Source: a virus
Virus record (IMG/VR): IMGVR_UViG_3300043395_000122
Span: 1-36,112 of that record
Direction: 5' to 3' (one strand)
DNA length: 36,112 bases
The position numbers and the translations under genes are program-made. Numbering within the stretch: position 1 is the first letter of the stretch; each line of letters opens with the position of its first letter. Below the pieces are notes generated by a model. It had not been told where the DNA came from. It saw nothing but the letters and a program-made list of their open reading frames with translations, and did not search any database. Shown piece by piece: positions 3,805-22,321 of the stretch.

Positions 3805-4044
3805 TCAGAGAGATTCAGCAATCTCGGCTTGCTTTTTTCTCCAGCGAACGACAGCAGCTTGTTTCTTCATGCGTCGCTTGATGGAAGGTTTGGTAAAGTG
3901 TTCATGCTCCGAAAGATCGCGCAATAGATTCTCACGCTGAACTTTCTTCTTTAATATGCGAAGAGCACCGTTCACATCATTATTGCGAACAGTGACTGAA
4001 ATACCCTTGAGATGCTCCCAAGGCTCACGATTATCAGTAGCCAA
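3805..4044 (-). CDS. rpsU: Phage-encoded 30S ribosomal protein bS21
   Basis: 79 residues with the bS21 pattern: ISVTVRNNDVNGALRILKKK, then a basic middle with ENLLRDLSEHEHFTKPS and a highly basic tail (IKRRMKKQ...RWRKK). bS21 sits at the mRNA exit of the small subunit near the anti-Shine-Dalgarno helix and affects initiation. Phage copies are known from several large phages and are thought to bias host ribosomes to phage mRNAs. The start appears to be TTG at 4044 with GGAG 6 nt upstream; no in-frame ATG is available nearby. An ATG-GAG-TTA-TAA mini-frame overlaps the Shine-Dalgarno. A hairpin terminator lies upstream, so its promoter is not obvious. Confidence 0.88.
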   Translation of the reverse strand: MATDNREPWEHLKGISVTVRNNDVNGALRILKKKVQRENLLRDLSEHEHFTKPSIKRRMKKQAAVVRWRKKQAEIAESL

Positions 4045-4398: not shown

Positions 4399-5595
4399 TC
4401 AGAAAGCGATTTCTTGAGTGTTCTCCGTTGCGGTGGTAGCAACAGGAGTCTCGGGGACGGGATTGATCGTAGGATCAACCTTAGCATAGAGATCGAGGAA
4501 CGCAGTCTTCGTCTCTTCGTCGAAACGGTTAATGCACAGGCGAATAGCTTTCTGACGATCGCCGATCATGCGGAACGTCTGTGCAATGTGAACAAGGCGA
4601 CGAGTTGAGATAAGCTCGTCAATCGCGCCTTCAGTGAAAGTCTTGCGAATGATATCTGACCAATCAGTGAGATGGCTGACAAACGATTTATCATCTTCAG
4701 TCATTGTATCATCTGACAGGTAATTCGTCAAGATCTTTTTCTCGATGGCAGGAGTAGGATATTCCTGCTCGATAGTGATCGGGAAACGCTCAAGCCAAGC
4801 ATCGTCGAGCATCGTAGCGGCAACATAACGACCGTCGTCAGAGCCACGACCCTTAGTGTTAGCCGTAACGATTACGTTGAAACCTTCAGTGGCTGTGATG
4901 ATTTCGCCAGTCTTCTTCATGAAGTAGGGCTTACCTTCGAGGATACCTTGCAAGCACATAGCCTTGCCAGGATCAGCACGGTCAGCTTCGTCGATCAGCA
5001 AGATAGCACCGATCTCCATAGCACGGAGCACCGGACCCTTCATGAACTTCGTTTCGCCTTCGATGAGACGGAAACCGCCGATCAAATCGTCTTCGTCAGT
5101 CTCACGCGACATCTGGACACGAATCATCGGACGCTTGACTTTGGCGCACACCTGCTCGACCATGAACGTCTTGCCGTTGCCGGAATGACCGGAGATGAAC
5201 ACAGGGAAGAACTTGCCAGAAGCAATGATCTTCTCCATCATCTTAAACTCACCGAACGGAACGTAGTGCTTATCTTTCGTAGGAACCTGCGCATAGTCAT
5301 GCTCGGAAACAGCGTTCGGGTCGAATTTCTTAGTAGTCACAGGAGTCTCGCGGCGGATGGGAACAATATCAGCAGCCATGGCTGCGAGATTCTCGGATTC
5401 AGTTGAATCGTATGCAGGCAGTTTATACTGCGCACGACCAGCACGATACGACGGCTTGAAGATCCAGCCGTGATCAGAACCTGAGAATCCGTTCTCAGAT
5501 GCGAACGCAGTAAGATCCTTAGCAGGAATAACAGCCTGAGAGCCGAACGCACGAGTGGCGGCTTCGAGGAACTTGACTTGATTAGCCTTCAACAT
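4399..5595 (-). CDS. CobS/MoxR-like AAA+ ATPase
   Basis: 398 residues. Walker A GHSGNGKT is at 136-143, Walker B LLIDEAD at 199-205, and a sensor-1 region reads VIVTANTKG. The TANTxGxGxxxGxY pattern is typical of the CobS branch of AAA+ proteins. Residues 1-60 form a separate domain ending with WIFKPSYRAGRAQYKLP. cobS-like genes are common in T4-like cyanophages, where a cobalt-chelatase role is often assumed. Here the partner is a metallopeptidase-VWA protein two genes upstream, so the pair more likely acts as a MoxR/VWA-type remodelling machine. It has its own promoter (5626-5654). The leader mini-frame starting ATGATG ends in a TGA overlapping the start codon. Confidence 0.85.
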   Translation of the reverse strand: MLKANQVKFLEAATRAFGSQAVIPAKDLTAFASENGFSGSDHGWIFKPSYRAGRAQYKLPAYDSTESENLAAMAADIVPIRRETPVTTKKFDPNAVSEHDYAQVPTKDKHYVPFGEFKMMEKIIASGKFFPVFISGHSGNGKTFMVEQVCAKVKRPMIRVQMSRETDEDDLIGGFRLIEGETKFMKGPVLRAMEIGAILLIDEADRADPGKAMCLQGILEGKPYFMKKTGEIITATEGFNVIVTANTKGRGSDDGRYVAATMLDDAWLERFPITIEQEYPTPAIEKKILTNYLSDDTMTEDDKSFVSHLTDWSDIIRKTFTEGAIDELISTRRLVHIAQTFRMIGDRQKAIRLCINRFDEETKTAFLDLYAKVDPTINPVPETPVATTATENTQEIAF

Positions 5596-5625
5596 TTGCC
5601 TTCACCTTTCTTCATCATATAATAT

Positions 5626-5654
5626 ATTATAGCTCGTGGCTGAGCAGTTGTCAA
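5626..5654 (-). promoter_or_regulatory. Early promoter before the CobS-like gene
   Basis: TTGACA (5654-5649), 17-bp spacer and TATAAT (5631-5626) on the minus strand: a perfect sigma70 consensus. ATGATGAAGAAAGG starts 8 nt after the -10. The element belongs to the repeated promoter family also found at 5839, 8226, 8846 and 9496. Confidence 0.88.
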
Positions 5655-5655
5655 G

Positions 5656-5811
5656 TCACATTCTTTCGATAGTGGGCTTGCCAACGAGCTTCGCGCCCAA
5701 GAGCATGAGCTCACGCATGAACACGAATGCGTCCTTCAGATAGCGGAACGTGGCAGACTCATCGCGAATGAACTTATCTTCGCCCTTGATGGTATATGTT
5801 ACCTTGAACAT
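5656..5811 (-). CDS. Small unknown protein (51 aa)
   Basis: A 51-residue frame beginning MFKVTYTIKGEDKFIRDESA and ending GKPTIERM. AGGAG lies 8 nt before the ATG, a perfect promoter is 28 nt upstream, and the stop is immediately followed by the next promoter's -35 box. The sequence suggests a beta hairpin (FKVTYTIKGED) followed by a helix with hydrophobic face (FRYLKDAFVFMRELMLLGAKL), like many phage small proteins that bind host factors. An in-frame ATGATG at the predicted transcript start would add seven residues if used. No family is recognised. Its position between the CobS-like and CobT-like genes may mean a role with them. Confidence 0.7.
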   Translation of the reverse strand: MFKVTYTIKGEDKFIRDESATFRYLKDAFVFMRELMLLGAKLVGKPTIERM

Positions 5812-5838
5812 TTTGCCTTCTCCTATCATCATAATACT

Positions 5839-5867
5839 ATTATAGGTGGTTGGCAGAGAGTTGTCAA
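5839..5867 (-). promoter_or_regulatory. Early promoter before the 51-aa gene, with inverted repeat
   Basis: TTGACA (5867-5862), 17-bp spacer and TATAAT (5844-5839), a perfect consensus. The predicted +1 (5832) is the A of ATGATG. A perfect 9-bp inverted repeat, TTGGCAGAG at 5850-5858 and CTCTGCCAA at 5871-5879, flanks the -35 box and could be an operator or a hairpin from upstream read-through. Confidence 0.88.
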
Positions 5868-5885
5868 GCCCTCTGCCAACCGCTG

Positions 5886-8201
5886 TTACGCAGCGATCTT
5901 TTCGATGAATTTGCCCAGAATGGCGCGACTTGCTCCGCGCTTATTCTGCGAGCTGATGAAAGCACGAGCGAGCTGTCCTTTCTTCAGATCTTGGGCTGCA
6001 TCGAACTTAGCCTGCTGGGCTTGCAGATTCTTGCCGCCTTGGATGATGTAGAACTCATCGAAGTTGAGCATGTTGGGAATCACAGCCCCATCCTTTTTCT
6101 TCTTCCACTTATCCTGGAACGCCATACCATCAGCAACCGACAGATAGCGATACGAAACGTGGCGAACATCGTAAGGACCGCTTACGATATAGAAACCAAC
6201 GAACGTTGCTTGCTGTGAGTGACGCACGGTACGAGCGAACATGGCAGTGATATGATGCGAACTATCGAAGTTCATCATCGTCTGAATACGCGACTCTTCA
6301 TCGACGAAGATGTTCGTGTTATGACGTCCGCCAGAACACGGGATAGATTCGCCCTGAGGACGCATACCCGCGCGAGCACGATAGTAGGTAGAGTGATTGC
6401 TCTCACCATCAGTGATGCACACGAAGTTCATGATCTGAATGTTCTTTTCCTTACGGAACTTCGCGAGCAGATCACGCGACACGAGGATTGCATCATTGAG
6501 CGGCGTACCACTCAAGCCAAGGAACTGCAGGAACTCAGCATAAGAACGACCTGCTGCCAAGTCGATATAAGAACCAGGACGCATATCAACAGTCTTTTCG
6601 TCAGGCTCATTATCGAAACGCTTGGCAGACATTAGCAACGTACCGACCATCGTGTTGAAGTCCTTGAGATTCATATCTTCATGGAAGAACTCAAGGAGAT
6701 GGAAACTACGATCAGGGAACACGAAGAGCTTGTCACCCATACGAGTGTTGATCTTCTGGAACAATGCTTCCTTGTTCCTAGCCCGAACATTGTCTCGACC
6801 AAAGTCGAACGTTGCAGCAGCAGCCTGCGTGAATCCATAGATACGATGCGGGATGCCAACACGACGACAGAACATAGTCAGACAGATCAGCTGATCCATC
6901 GCACCACGATAGTTGCTGGACATAGAGCCAGACATATCAAGAATCGCAACGATACCATGATTCTTGCCAGTAGGCTCAATCGTCAGGCGCTTAAAGATAT
7001 CGTCGTTGAACTTATAGCTATGCAGCTTGTTCACGTCGATGACGCCAGTCTTAGCCTGCTTGCTACGGCTATACGCAACAGCAGCTTTCTTCATCTCGAA
7101 TTCCTTGACCATATAGTTGATCGCGGTGTTATTCTCCGAGCGGAAACGAGTCAGCAACCAGCTACGATATTCAACGAGTTTCTGCTTGTTAACAGCTTTG
7201 CCAAATTCATGGTCGATTTGAGCAAGAACATCGCGATGACTTACAGTGAACTCTTCGTGAGTCAGATCTTTAGGGAAGTGGATATAGCGAAACTCGCGAC
7301 CAGTCAGAGTCTGATCGAGAAGCTCTTCCATACGATCGTTCATGGCGCGATCAGTCTTGGACTCGTCTGGCTCCATCTTAGGCTTGGTGCCAGATCCGCC
7401 TTCTTTACCGCTATTGCCACCTAGATCTTTATCGTCTTCATCTTCGTCTTTTGACTTTTCCTGTTCTCCAGACTCAGATTCGTCAGAATCACTTTCATCA
7501 GATTCATCTTCATCGTTGTCGAAGTCATCGCTGTCTTCGTCACCCATTTCCGACTTGATCTTCAGCTTGAATTCTTTTTCTTCTTCGTTCTCGTCTTCTT
7601 TCTTTTTCTTGGCGTAGGCGAACAGATCTTCTGCCAGCTTAACGACATCATCGAACGTGATAGTCTGTTCAGCACGGCGAACGAAATCGCGCTCTTCGTC
7701 ATTGAACTTCATACGCAAACGAGTACCAAGCTTGAAGTAGAGATTGATACGATCGATCAGCGGAAGCTTATCAACGTCTTCGTTCTTGACAGAAAAGAAG
7801 TCTTGTTCGTGAAGCCAGTTGTAGCCTTCGATGAAGTCACGGCGCGAGCCAGGAAACTTCGTCTTGATCTTGCGCTCGATACGAGCGTCTTCTACAACAT
7901 TAAGATAGCTCTGGAACGTCGATGCGATACGACGCGACTCGTTTTCTTCGGCTACCTTGTCGATAGCACCTTTCCAGCCAGCGGCAGGAGTTTCGAGCGC
8001 ATGACCAACTTCATGCAACACGAGCATGTGATACAGAGTCTCAGTCATCTCGCGCCACATAGGCAAAGCGAGGACACGATTCTTCACGTCGAAGTAGGCT
8101 GTCTTGATCGGCTTATGCTCGACCATGATGTTCTCAGCAGCCAACAGCTTGGCGAGCTTATCGAGCGCTCCGCCAGGAGTTATAATCTTTTCTTCAGCCA
8201 T
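5886..8201 (-). CDS. CobT-like protein: HExxH metallopeptidase motif plus VWA domain
   Basis: 771 residues from the ATG at 8201, which has GGAG 6 nt upstream. An in-frame ATGATG at 8219 lies on the predicted transcript start and could give a six-residue extension. HEVGH at residues 63-67 followed by NVVEDARIE at 101-109 looks like a zinc site with a downstream Glu ligand. Residues of about 200-260 are a long Asp/Glu/Ser linker. The VWA domain carries the MIDAS motif DMSGSMS from residue 422. It is labelled CobT-like in phages by VWA similarity, yet the intact HExxH argues for proteolysis or protein remodelling with the CobS-like ATPase, not cobalamin synthesis; no other cob gene is present. 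It has its own strong promoter. Confidence 0.82.
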   Translation of the reverse strand: MAEEKIITPGGALDKLAKLLAAENIMVEHKPIKTAYFDVKNRVLALPMWREMTETLYHMLVLHEVGHALETPAAGWKGAIDKVAEENESRRIASTFQSYLNVVEDARIERKIKTKFPGSRRDFIEGYNWLHEQDFFSVKNEDVDKLPLIDRINLYFKLGTRLRMKFNDEERDFVRRAEQTITFDDVVKLAEDLFAYAKKKKEDENEEEKEFKLKIKSEMGDEDSDDFDNDEDESDESDSDESESGEQEKSKDEDEDDKDLGGNSGKEGGSGTKPKMEPDESKTDRAMNDRMEELLDQTLTGREFRYIHFPKDLTHEEFTVSHRDVLAQIDHEFGKAVNKQKLVEYRSWLLTRFRSENNTAINYMVKEFEMKKAAVAYSRSKQAKTGVIDVNKLHSYKFNDDIFKRLTIEPTGKNHGIVAILDMSGSMSSNYRGAMDQLICLTMFCRRVGIPHRIYGFTQAAAATFDFGRDNVRARNKEALFQKINTRMGDKLFVFPDRSFHLLEFFHEDMNLKDFNTMVGTLLMSAKRFDNEPDEKTVDMRPGSYIDLAAGRSYAEFLQFLGLSGTPLNDAILVSRDLLAKFRKEKNIQIMNFVCITDGESNHSTYYRARAGMRPQGESIPCSGGRHNTNIFVDEESRIQTMMNFDSSHHITAMFARTVRHSQQATFVGFYIVSGPYDVRHVSYRYLSVADGMAFQDKWKKKKDGAVIPNMLNFDEFYIIQGGKNLQAQQAKFDAAQDLKKGQLARAFISSQNKRGASRAILGKFIEKIAA

Positions 8202-8225
8202 AGAACTCTCCTTCATCATTTACTA

Positions 8226-8254
8226 ATGATAGCTGGTTGGCGCACAGTTGTCAA
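8226..8254 (-). promoter_or_regulatory. Early promoter before the CobT-like gene
   Basis: TTGACA (8254-8249), 17-bp spacer and TATCAT (8231-8226). Predicted +1 at 8219 is the A of ATGATGAAGGAG, in frame with the gene. The -35 box overlaps the stop codon of the 55-aa gene. Confidence 0.85.
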
Positions 8255-8623: not shown

Positions 8624-8821
8624 TCAGTTCTGTTCGAAATAGCGAATATCAGCTTCAGTGGTATACGGATCTTCCGCTTGGATCAGTCGAGTGAGTTCTG
8701 ACCAAAGCCAGTCGATCTTAGAATGGAAAGCATTGGCTAGTCCATAATCGCCAGCGTCCATAGCTAGTCCATAATTCGTTTCCATATGGTCGAGCGCGGT
8801 GCGGACTTGGTCGATTGTCAT
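8624..8821 (-). CDS. Small protein of unknown function (65 aa)
   Basis: The chosen start at 8821 (MTIDQVRTALDHMETNYGLA) has AAGGA 6 nt upstream. An in-frame ATGATG at 8839, six codons earlier, coincides with the predicted transcript start, the same layout as the CobT-like gene. The protein looks entirely helical with an acidic character (DHMETNYGLAMDAGDYGLAN, then WSELTRLIQAEDP). It is the first gene of a three-gene set (65, 66 and 55 aa). No family is recognised. Confidence 0.62.
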   Translation of the reverse strand: MTIDQVRTALDHMETNYGLAMDAGDYGLANAFHSKIDWLWSELTRLIQAEDPYTTEADIRYFEQN

Positions 8822-8845
8822 TGGCTTTCCTTTCATCATATATTC

Positions 8846-9243: not shown

Positions 9244-9465
9244 TTAGTTAGAAGTGGCAAGATGGAAAATGTCGCTTGCGAGCGGTCCATTGAACAGATC
9301 AGTCAGATCGTCATGAATACCATCCATCGAGAAGTAGCCGTCACCGCAATGACGATCCTCAGCAATCTGTTTCAGACGCGACGACATTTCTGCCGAAAAG
9401 TCGACATAAGTGAGGGTGGCGTCCAGAAGGGCGCGGTACATTTCGTAGGCATAATCGGTTTTCAT
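9244..9465 (-). CDS. Small acidic protein of unknown function (73 aa)
   Basis: Starts MKTDYAYEMYRALLDATLTY with AAGGA 6 nt upstream and a promoter directly before it. It is mostly helical and acidic, with one Cys in RHCGDGYFSMDG. It is the first gene of a two-gene early unit. Acidic early proteins of this size in phages often bind host enzymes or mimic DNA, but nothing in the sequence identifies such a role here. Confidence 0.62.
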   Translation of the reverse strand: MKTDYAYEMYRALLDATLTYVDFSAEMSSRLKQIAEDRHCGDGYFSMDGIHDDLTDLFNGPLASDIFHLATSN

Positions 9466-9495: not shown

Positions 9496-9524
9496 ATTCT
9501 ATACCCCCTATGGCGAGTTGTCAA
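9496..9524 (-). promoter_or_regulatory. Early promoter before the 73-aa gene
   Basis: TTGACA (9524-9519), 17-bp spacer and TAGAAT (9501-9496). Unlike its relatives, the downstream leader lacks ATGATG and the spacer lacks GCCAACC, though ACTCGC after the -35 is kept. Predicted +1 is an A at 9489. Confidence 0.85.
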
Positions 9525-10298: not shown

Positions 10299-11434
10299 TG
10301 CAATTCCTTGTATGGCTTGAGGATGTTTTCGTAGATAGAAGTGGCGAGAGCTGACATCATCTTAGGAGCTACCATTCTTCCGATACGTTCTGCCTGCTGA
10401 TTAAACGTGCCAGTGAGTTCGTAATCATCAGGTAAGCTCATTATACGTTTCATTTCCTTAATTGTCAACTTCCTATTTGCAGCATAGTGCATAACACCAC
10501 TGGCACTGAGTTGCTGTCCCATCTGCGTGAGCGTAGGAGACGGCTTATTTGGAGCTGGACGCTTCATATTGAAACATGATAGCTTGTTGTTGACCATTCC
10601 TGGCTTTAGCGTTTTCGTTGGATTGAATGGCATAGTCTCAACGAACTTCTTCTGGAAACTTGTTTCGCAGAAGTCCAGGAGCATTTGAACTTCTGCTGGA
10701 TCATTGTCGATCCCTTCAATCGCGCTACCGATTGACACACCTTGCGATGTGCTGGGCATTGGATATACTCGACGAGCGAGTTCATACTCCTCCAGCCCCA
10801 GAGCGTCGAACACATCGTTTCTAACTCCCACGAAAAATGTTCTCATACGACTCTGGGGCACCCCAAACTTCGAAGCATCCATCACTTGATACACCATCTT
10901 ATATCCTGGTGCGATGCGTTCGAAGCCTGTTACGAAATCTCTGAGTTTCTCGATCGCAGCACGCGAAGTAATCCCTTCAACGTTTTCTGCTACGATCACC
11001 TTCGGCTGGATATCTTCTGCGATTCGAATGTATTCCAAGAACAGATCTTCGATATTCGTTACTGTCTTACCATCGGAATACTTCTTTTCGCGATTCCAAC
11101 CTTTCTTACCCTTACCAGATGTAGAAAACGCAGAACACGGAGGAGATCCGTCGAGGATATCAAGTTCTCCTGGCTTAAGATTACCTACTTCTAGTAGATC
11201 TTTTCCAGTGATGTTCTTGATATCACCTAGGATAACTTTCGTGTCGGGAAAGTTGCGCGAGTAAGTAGCAACAGCTTCTTCAACAAACTCATTAATCGCG
11301 ACAACTTTCCCGCCTGCTAGCCGATATCCTGTTGAAGATCCACCGCCTCCAGCAAACGTCGATACCACTGTAAACAGTTCACGGGATGACGAACGTCGCA
11401 CGTCTTCAATAGTATATGGCTGATACTTATTCAC
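10295..11434 (-). CDS. DNA C5-cytosine methyltransferase family with motif X Asn-to-Arg change
   Basis: 379 residues with all major C5-methyltransferase motifs: I, STFAGGGGSSTG at about 25-36; IV, GSPPC with nucleophile Cys100; VI, ENV at 150-152; VIII, QSRMR at 194-198; X, ERIGRMVAP at about 349-357. In nearly all members motif X reads GN(S/A/M)V, and the Asn is here Arg353 (codon AGA read directly). An engineered Asn-to-Lys change at this site in M.MpeI is known to allow carboxy-SAM use. The gene overlaps the deformylase before it and the CmoA-like gene after it, both as ATGA. No restriction partner is present, so it probably modifies phage DNA. The product may be 5-carboxymethylcytosine; this is a hypothesis. 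Confidence 0.9.
   Translation of the reverse strand: MNKYQPYTIEDVRRSSSRELFTVVSTFAGGGGSSTGYRLAGGKVVAINEFVEEAVATYSRNFPDTKVILGDIKNITGKDLLEVGNLKPGELDILDGSPPCSAFSTSGKGKKGWNREKKYSDGKTVTNIEDLFLEYIRIAEDIQPKVIVAENVEGITSRAAIEKLRDFVTGFERIAPGYKMVYQVMDASKFGVPQSRMRTFFVGVRNDVFDALGLEEYELARRVYPMPSTSQGVSIGSAIEGIDNDPAEVQMLLDFCETSFQKKFVETMPFNPTKTLKPGMVNNKLSCFNMKRPAPNKPSPTLTQMGQQLSASGVMHYAANRKLTIKEMKRIMSLPDDYELTGTFNQQAERIGRMVAPKMMSALATSIYENILKPYKELQ
10440..10468 (-). promoter_or_regulatory. Consensus sigma70 promoter inside the methyltransferase gene
   Basis: TTGACA (10468-10463), 17-bp spacer and TATAAT (10445-10440), a perfect match within the coding sequence, about 140 bp before the CmoA-like gene start. It would allow the CmoA-like gene to be transcribed apart from the upstream operon. 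Confidence 0.65.
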
Positions 11435-11964
11435 GCTGACTTCAACTTTCTTTGTGCTTTGGCTTTGAAATTCTTAGCCTGATCTAAATGATAACGATTA
11501 GCACGAGTTTGGAATGTTACTCCGTTAAGATGATCGTACTCATGCTGAAATACTCGCGCAGTATATCCTTCGAAACGAGAAGTACCTGCTTCACCATCCC
11601 ATCCACGATAACGAACACGGATACCTCGTGGACGCTTGATCTTGATGAACAATCCAGGATAGCTAACGCATCCTTCTTCATAGACGACTGTTTCTTCGTC
11701 GTAGTTGGTAATGAGCGGATTAAATACACCAATGATATCTTGTGGCGAATCTGGATTACCGATAACAAAAGCTCGAGTCATAATACCAAGCTGTGAAGCA
11801 GAAAGTCCTACTCCACGATGCTCGATCATCTTGTCACGAAGAAGTTCGAACAACTCTTTGGCTTTAATAACTGTGCCATCTTCCATAACGTATCCGTTCT
11901 CGAAATCGAACTCTGGACAAGTCTGCTTTAGAAGTGGGTTGCTACCTTTTAACAATTCAATCAT
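11431..11964 (-). CDS. def: Peptide deformylase
   Basis: 177 residues carrying the three deformylase motifs: GVGLSASQLG at 51-60 (family GxGLAAxQ, with Ser for the usual Ala), EGCVS at 97-101 with the metal-binding Cys, and QHEYDH at 140-145 with the HExxH zinc/iron site. The enzyme removes formyl groups from new proteins in the cytoplasm. Phage deformylases are known in cyanophages and some vibriophages, and usually lack the long C-terminal extension, but this one is near full length. The start ATG overlaps the gp46 stop (ATGA) and the gene overlaps the methyltransferase in the same way. With the phage bS21 it forms a second translation-related gene in the window. Confidence 0.93.
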   Translation of the reverse strand: MIELLKGSNPLLKQTCPEFDFENGYVMEDGTVIKAKELFELLRDKMIEHRGVGLSASQLGIMTRAFVIGNPDSPQDIIGVFNPLITNYDEETVVYEEGCVSYPGLFIKIKRPRGIRVRYRGWDGEAGTSRFEGYTARVFQHEYDHLNGVTFQTRANRYHLDQAKNFKAKAQRKLKSA

Positions 11965-21664: not shown

Positions 21665-22321
21665 TTAGAACTTCTTGAGGAACTTGTTAAACGCATTAAG
21701 AAGAACCGTTTCACGATCCTTGTTAGTTGCGTATCCCTCGTTGATGTCTTTCTTAATAGCGGCTACTTCTTTTTCGACAAGGATGCCGTTATCCCAAACC
21801 CATTCGCGACCTTCCATGATCCCATTAGCGAGAGCATGAGGTGCTGAAGGATCTGCTACGATATCGGCTGCTGTTGCAAGATAAAAGTCTCTCTGAACTT
21901 CCATGAGACCATCTTTTCTCTTAACTAGAGAACCCATACCGCGTGAAGAGAAGCCGAGTTTAGCGCCTTCCTTCATAAGATTCTTTACGATATTACCATA
22001 TGGCGTATCCATGATTTTCACTTTACCAACAAAATTGTCACCTTCTTGTCTTAGTGACTTAACCATGTGCGATACGCGCTCGAGATTAATTGTAGGACCC
22101 TGTGGATGTCCAAGTTCACCATAGGCACGATTCTGCTCAACGAACTCGCGATTGTAGCGAGCAACTTCGTTAGCTAGTGTATCTGTGGGATAAACACGAC
22201 CATTCTTGTTACCAATATTTCCCTGCATCAGAATGCCTTCTAGGAAATACTGCTTCTCACCTGCTTCATTTGCTTCAGTAATGATCTGTAGATTTTCGTT
22301 AACTTCGCAGATGAGTTTCAT
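21665..22321 (-). CDS. 21: Prohead core protease, T4 gp21-like
   Basis: 218 residues (T4 gp21 has 212). The fold is the U9/herpesvirus-like serine protease: ELGHPQGPTINLERVSHM carries a probable catalytic His, and LGFSSRGMGS carries the catalytic Ser. The N-terminal GNIGNKNGRVYP is typical of prohead proteases. It cuts scaffold, core and capsid propeptides after Leu/Ile-x-Glu. The ATG overlaps the stop of the upstream gene as TAATG. Confidence 0.95.
   Translation of the reverse strand: MKLICEVNENLQIITEANEAGEKQYFLEGILMQGNIGNKNGRVYPTDTLANEVARYNREFVEQNRAYGELGHPQGPTINLERVSHMVKSLRQEGDNFVGKVKIMDTPYGNIVKNLMKEGAKLGFSSRGMGSLVKRKDGLMEVQRDFYLATAADIVADPSAPHALANGIMEGREWVWDNGILVEKEVAAIKKDINEGYATNKDRETVLLNAFNKFLKKF

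Follow-up and report, generated by a model that had tools for sequence, protein, structure and literature searches.

A CobS-like AAA+ ATPase and a zincin-like VWA protein in T4-like phages: a probable MoxR-type machine rather than a cobalt chelatase

For well over a decade, a core gene of T4-like cyanophages that encodes an ATPase has been called cobS, a vitamin B12 gene, and has been used as a community marker. What this ATPase and its neighbor do is the question raised by positions 4399–8201 of IMG/VR virus record IMGVR_UViG_3300043395_000122 (the whole 36,112-base stretch is referred to here as the window), in which a CobS-like AAA+ ATPase gene lies beside a gene for a VWA-domain protein with a zinc-peptidase motif. 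Published papers disagree on the identity of the pair: cyanophage papers named the ATPase cobS and proposed B12 synthesis, one review considers it increasingly evident that the cyanophage ATPase and bacterial cobS are not homologous, and a survey of archaeal viruses took the partner for a CobT “mistakenly annotated as a peptidase” and proposed hijacking of the host CobN (PMC8651126). A first-pass annotation of the window read the pair as a protease or remodeller of MoxR/VWA type and not as a cobalt chelatase. Our analysis favors the opposite of a mistaken peptidase annotation, namely a MoxR motor beside a conserved subunit that combines zinc peptidase and VWA, and we think that the pair probably forms a two-subunit MoxR AAA+/VWA machine with a gluzincin (zinc metallopeptidase) domain on the adaptor. 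The idea of a MoxR/peptidase-VWA pair is not new (PMC7824862); what we add is evidence from promoters, a test of invariance and a contrast drawn against genuine CobT sequences.

Window proteins were compared with Pfam and PHROG. All three genes of the pair locus, like the other genes discussed, lie on the minus strand. The zincin-VWA gene (5886–8201) encodes a 771-aa protein that matches phrog_459 “peptidase” (E 5.7e-187); an in-frame ATG also occurs at 8219, but a GGAG ribosome-binding site stands immediately upstream of 8201. The motifs that had been noticed at first reading are present: HEVGH at residues 63–67 (8001–8015), which holds two predicted zinc ligands and the catalytic Glu, and NVVEDARIE at residues 101–109, whose first seven residues (7881–7901) include the predicted third zinc ligand, E104, on a helix spanning residues 90–115. 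In a 55-sequence alignment reaching down to about 30% identity, H63, E64, H67, N101, E104, D105 and R107 are invariant. HExxH and NxxED are likewise kept in 80/80 IMG/VR loci and in 16/16 loci that come from genome assemblies and may themselves be phage contigs. Conservation of the zincin-VWA motifs to this depth is not chance.

Structure prediction, proposed by the first-pass annotation as a check, gave a confident model of the N-terminal zincin domain (residues 16–212; 7566–8156) that carries the metal-site motifs. The full-length AlphaFold2 model has a predicted local distance difference test score (pLDDT) of 79 with the acidic linker disordered, and the isolated domain reaches a pLDDT of 89.3 and a predicted template modelling score (pTM) of 0.84. 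The domain is modeled as three strands, a helix bearing HEVGH and then a helix with NVVEDAR. Its top structural neighbors are mostly zinc metallopeptidases, namely ZMPSTE24, ArdC, BlaR1, BepA, minigluzincins, PprI and Wss1 (Z 7.7–4.8), and its sequence profile matches projannalysin weakly (E 0.015); a hidden Markov model profile of the full-length protein matched no PDB sequence. Since the single Z values are moderate, the zincin assignment rests on the consistent neighbor list together with the invariant motif. HExxH is followed by a downstream Glu ligand on the next helix within a zincin fold, the arrangement of gluzincins. The model thus supports a zincin-like domain with a complete, invariant metal site, which we take as a predicted peptidase site.

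Downstream of this domain runs an acidic, disordered linker (residues ~206–285; 7347–7586), with pLDDT below 50 at residues 218–276 and 26–48% Asp+Glu in all aligned relatives. The linker joins the zincin domain to a VWA domain that ends in a conserved C-terminal tail (5889–6965) and whose metal ion-dependent adhesion site (MIDAS) is intact (DMSGS/T566/D598), as first annotated; its five residues, D422, S424, S426, T566 and D598, are invariant across the 55 sequences. The VWA fold is closest to the MIDAS domain of midasin (Z 15.6) and the VWA domain of NorD (Z ~15), within a range of about 14–16. Immediately before it, a helical region (residues 345–412; 6966–7169) contains the invariant residues K366, E367, F368, E369, G386 and F403. 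This region and the C-terminus rank among the better conserved parts of the protein, alongside the zincin core. In structures of NorQD, a finger of the VWA protein is threaded into the AAA+ pore, the C-terminus contacts the ring, and ATP-driven rotation of the VWA protein stretches a linker, with the MIDAS presumed to keep hold of the target (PMC13036017). By analogy with NorQD, region 345–412 and the C-terminus, both well conserved, are candidate ring contacts; the likeness of region 345–412 to the NorD finger is drawn from the published description (PMC13036017).

The adjoining gene (4399–5595) encodes the 398-aa ATPase (Pfam AAA_5, E 2.9e-21; phrog_249 “porphyrin biosynthesis”, 3e-102). Its Walker A motif, GHSGNGKT (residues 136–143; 5167–5190), and the DE of Walker B (D202 and E203; 4987–4992) are intact; G136, S138, G139, N140, G141, K142 and T143, D202 and E203, and the key arginines are invariant in a 46-sequence alignment. 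Compared with solved structures, its profile matches midasin, CobS, CbbQ and NorQ, in that order, which places it among the MoxR-like ATPases, enzymes whose partners are VWA proteins. The locus therefore pairs an AAA+ ATPase of the MoxR/CbbQ/CobS/midasin clade with a VWA protein carrying a DxSxS-T-D MIDAS. Taken with the zincin-like N-terminal domain, the profile and fold matches support, computationally, the remodeller or protease first proposed. Models of defence systems gave only weak, generic ATPase matches.

The two genes travel together. The AAA+ gene lies downstream of the zincin-VWA gene in 77 of the 80 IMG/VR loci, and in the remaining three the contig ends inside the AAA+ gene or just past the first gene. 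The zincin-VWA protein occurs in 463 GenBank phage records, and record totals for Synechococcus, cyanophage and Prochlorococcus entries are equal for both genes (365, 61 and 24, compared as totals). The pair is also present in Pelagibacter phage HTVC008M and in Stenotrophomonas phage DLP_6, the latter with HExxH and NxxED. Gordonia phage Phendrix and halovirus HCTV-2 have more distant HExxH proteins of similar layout; scans with the DLP_6, Phendrix and HCTV-2 proteins returned zero to two loci each. The same pair thus recurs in other phages, whereas the small partner between the two genes does not share this distribution. This 51-aa open reading frame (ORF) (5656–5811; MFKVTYTIKG...; alternative ATG at 5832, giving 58 aa) is kept in 14/14 close relatives, was not found in any of 66 more distant loci and has no Pfam or PHROG match. 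It was rejected as a general third component, since elsewhere the place between the two genes is empty or taken by other genes. A purine-rich ribosome-binding site stands close upstream of the chosen ATG in each of the three genes, the small ORF included.

Several loci depart from this layout. Four (L027 4178–4444, L028 7363–7626, L047 7414–7704 and L066 7306–7587) carry, between the gene for the zincin-VWA protein and that for the complete ATPase, a free-standing copy of the ATPase N-terminal domain (E 1e-16 to 3e-19). In Staphylococcus and Listeria herelleviruses (L100 3671–5646 and L101 3740–5588) the CobS-like ATPase is followed by a gene of ~280 aa with no obvious zincin-VWA partner. In Pseudomonas phage phiK7B1 (L102 1358–4759) a phrog_1576 VWA protein without HExxH adjoins a CobS-like ATPase. 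Genuine CobT also matches phrog_1576 (8e-42), so the CobT-like partners of phages may be of two kinds, one that has the zinc site and one that lacks it.

The architecture of the window pair is on record for group 2.2 jumbo phages, in which the neighbor of a MoxR-type ATPase is a vWA protein fused to a metallopeptidase at its N-terminus (ASV44728/ASV44729; PMC7824862), so the pair is not a new kind; the two are likened here by the published description. The jumbo-phage pair belongs to other phages and was proposed to act in virion assembly, whereas the window phage is T4-like, near the pelagi- and cyanomyoviruses, and has early-type promoters at its pair. Among window proteins are T4-type major head protein, sheath, tube, portal, terminase, gp46/gp47-type nucleases, sliding clamp and clamp loader, and the pair sits between recombination and clamp genes. 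The cyanomyovirus core pair, annotated phrog_459 “peptidase” and phrog_249 “CobS / porphyrin biosynthesis”, belongs to the same families and has the same order and place, although its peptidase is ~30–35% identical to that of the window and the intervening 51-aa ORF is specific to the window’s close relatives. NorQ-NorD and CbbQ-CbbO also combine a related AAA+ ATPase with a MIDAS-bearing VWA partner; in the literature considered, no peptidase site is reported for NorD or CbbO, whose targets are NO reductase and Rubisco.

When would such a pair be made? Sigma70-type promoters were scored as matches out of 12 consensus positions, with dinucleotide shuffles as control. Each of the three genes has its own: TTGACA-17-TATCAT for the zincin-VWA gene (8226–8254), and TTGACA-17-TATAAT for both the 51-aa ORF (5839–5867) and the AAA+ gene (5626–5654). 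These score 11–12/12, compared with 7–9/12 upstream of virion genes. At least 11/12 positions match in close relatives upstream of 11/13 zincin-VWA genes, 14/14 ATPase genes and 12/14 small ORFs (shuffles, 0), and in distant relatives upstream of 19/51 zincin-VWA and 19/45 ATPase genes, against 0.4% and 0.2% of shuffles. T4-type late boxes TATAAATA (35845, 31274, 23507, 21651 and 18998, minus strand) stand in the window before structural or neighboring genes, including those for scaffold, sheath and adaptor and one for a 68-aa product; none was found at the pair genes of the window. These promoters point to early transcription by the host polymerase, at least in the window’s lineage. Two further small genes (9244–9465 and 8624–8839) have TTGACAACT-type promoters at 9524 and 8874 on the minus strand, so that the region from 4.4 to 9.5 kb looks like a set of individually promoted early genes. 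Also near the pair are a phage-encoded ribosomal protein S21 (3805–4044, E 2.8e-15) and a peptide deformylase (11431–11964, E 5e-36).

A mechanism can be sketched from these parts. The CobS-like AAA+ ATPase would assemble into a ring on which the VWA subunit would dock, via the candidate finger before the VWA domain and the conserved C-terminus, much as NorD docks on NorQ. The MIDAS metal would grip the target at an acidic residue; rotation driven by ATP would remodel the target and present it to the zincin domain on its flexible acidic tether, and the zincin site would cut it. The pair would be transcribed early by host RNA polymerase, and its target would then most likely be a host or early phage protein and not a structural one. 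We offer, tentatively, a widespread phage ATP-dependent protease in which a MoxR ring drives a VWA adaptor and the tethered zincin cuts a MIDAS-held protein, early and against a host factor.

Gene linkage, the invariant zinc, MIDAS and ATPase motifs, the predicted folds and the promoter-like sequences are what we observe; complex formation, proteolysis, target and timing we infer. Several points weigh against these proposals. The fold matches of the N-terminal domain stay below Z 8, in the tool’s caution range, and its Foldseek E-values are weak. Some phage AAA+/VWA pairs, such as that of phiK7B1, lack HExxH, so that members of the class may remodel without cleaving. Among distant relatives ~40% have clear early promoters, and the sites are weak in HTVC008M, S-RIM12 and DLP_6. 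Some assembly chaperones, moreover, are made early by T4-type phages.

In a published alternative the pair acts late in virion assembly as a chaperone and processing peptidase of structural proteins (PMC7824862). The proposal was made for jumbo phages on the same architecture, and the paper cites a MoxR-VWA pair required for tail assembly of an archaeal virus. The window pair, by contrast, has host-type sigma70 promoters, is flanked by recombination and clamp genes, and lacks the late box TATAAATA that the genes for scaffold, sheath and adaptor have. T4-like capsids do undergo extensive proteolysis, but a normal prohead protease is also encoded in the window (21665–22321). With sigma70 promoters of its own at the pair and late boxes at virion genes instead, an early role is favored, and we regard assembly as rather unlikely for this pair.

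A second alternative accepts the MoxR/VWA machine and denies it the cut: a chaperone for metal insertion or remodelling, in which the zincin-like domain would serve to bind metal or substrate. NorQD offers a precedent, as it inserts iron through remodelling (PMC13036017), and both genuine CobT and the phiK7B1 protein (phiK7B1_058) are VWA partners without HExxH beside an AAA+ ATPase of this group. What is invariant in the window family, however, is not the metal ligands alone but also the catalytic Glu, E64, as expected for catalysis, and we hold such a chaperone to be quite improbable.

Finally, could the two proteins be CobS and CobT after all, using the host CobN to raise vitamin B12 (PMC8651126)? 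CobS is the best scorer among PDB chains with a single AAA+ domain (68 bits). CobT likewise joins an acidic linker to a VWA domain with MIDAS, and phrog_1576 is matched by the phage protein too (2e-13, possibly inflated by the acidic linker). Cyanobacteria have CobN without CobST (PMC9227772). The curated models speak otherwise: the ATPase scores 66.7 bits against the 558.55-bit cut-off of the CobS equivalog TIGR01650, the CobT family PF06213 has no match in the window record, and the window protein does not match PF11775 either, which reaches E 0.017 or worse in only 6/55 relatives. CobN (PF02514), with which CobT works, was not found in eight phage records, including the complete HTVC008M and DLP_6. 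Among 31 genuine CobT sequences from alphaproteobacteria, none has HExxH at the corresponding site, where HHDxxxH or similar stands (one CobT, L142, has HEPAH, but elsewhere in the protein), whereas the phage family keeps it everywhere. HCTV-2, from the Saparoviridae, a family that partly underlies the CobT claim, itself has HEMEH and NVLEDQ in its VWA protein. The pair also occurs in HTVC008M, whose host SAR11 reportedly seems to have no B12 synthesis and no need of the vitamin (PMC3476827). A class II (B12-dependent) ribonucleotide reductase (RNR) as the motive for raising B12 was considered and set aside, with no search aimed at it. HTVC008M, DLP_6 and one IMG/VR record encode a class I RNR small subunit; it was not found in the window and five other virus records, possibly fragments.

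Some kinship with CobT nevertheless seems probable from sequence, through the VWA domain and the region before it. When the zincin domain was aligned with the N-terminus of CobT, hhalign recovered the expected register (LP..R.MT, H...TP, EDARIE/ETARxE, PG) at E ~0.002–0.01 and a probability of 4–14%, with reversed controls at about half the score, although with the 31 CobTs its top match was the acidic linker alone. This homology is suggestive only, and we do not claim CobT as a decayed zincin protein. The PDB contains structures titled CobT, and the CobT N-terminal domain has been solved (21vu), but no structure with that title was among the fold matches listed, from which we draw nothing. 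Overall, a cobalt chelatase is unlikely, in keeping with the first-pass annotation, and its CobN-dependent form very improbable.

If the MoxR/VWA reading is true, conclusions on vitamin B12 that marine virome work took from this gene should be revised, and a phage machine that is abundant and probably early becomes open to direct test. The universal presence of “cobS” in the cyanomyovirus core would find an explanation in an early ATP-dependent protease, if that is what the pair forms.

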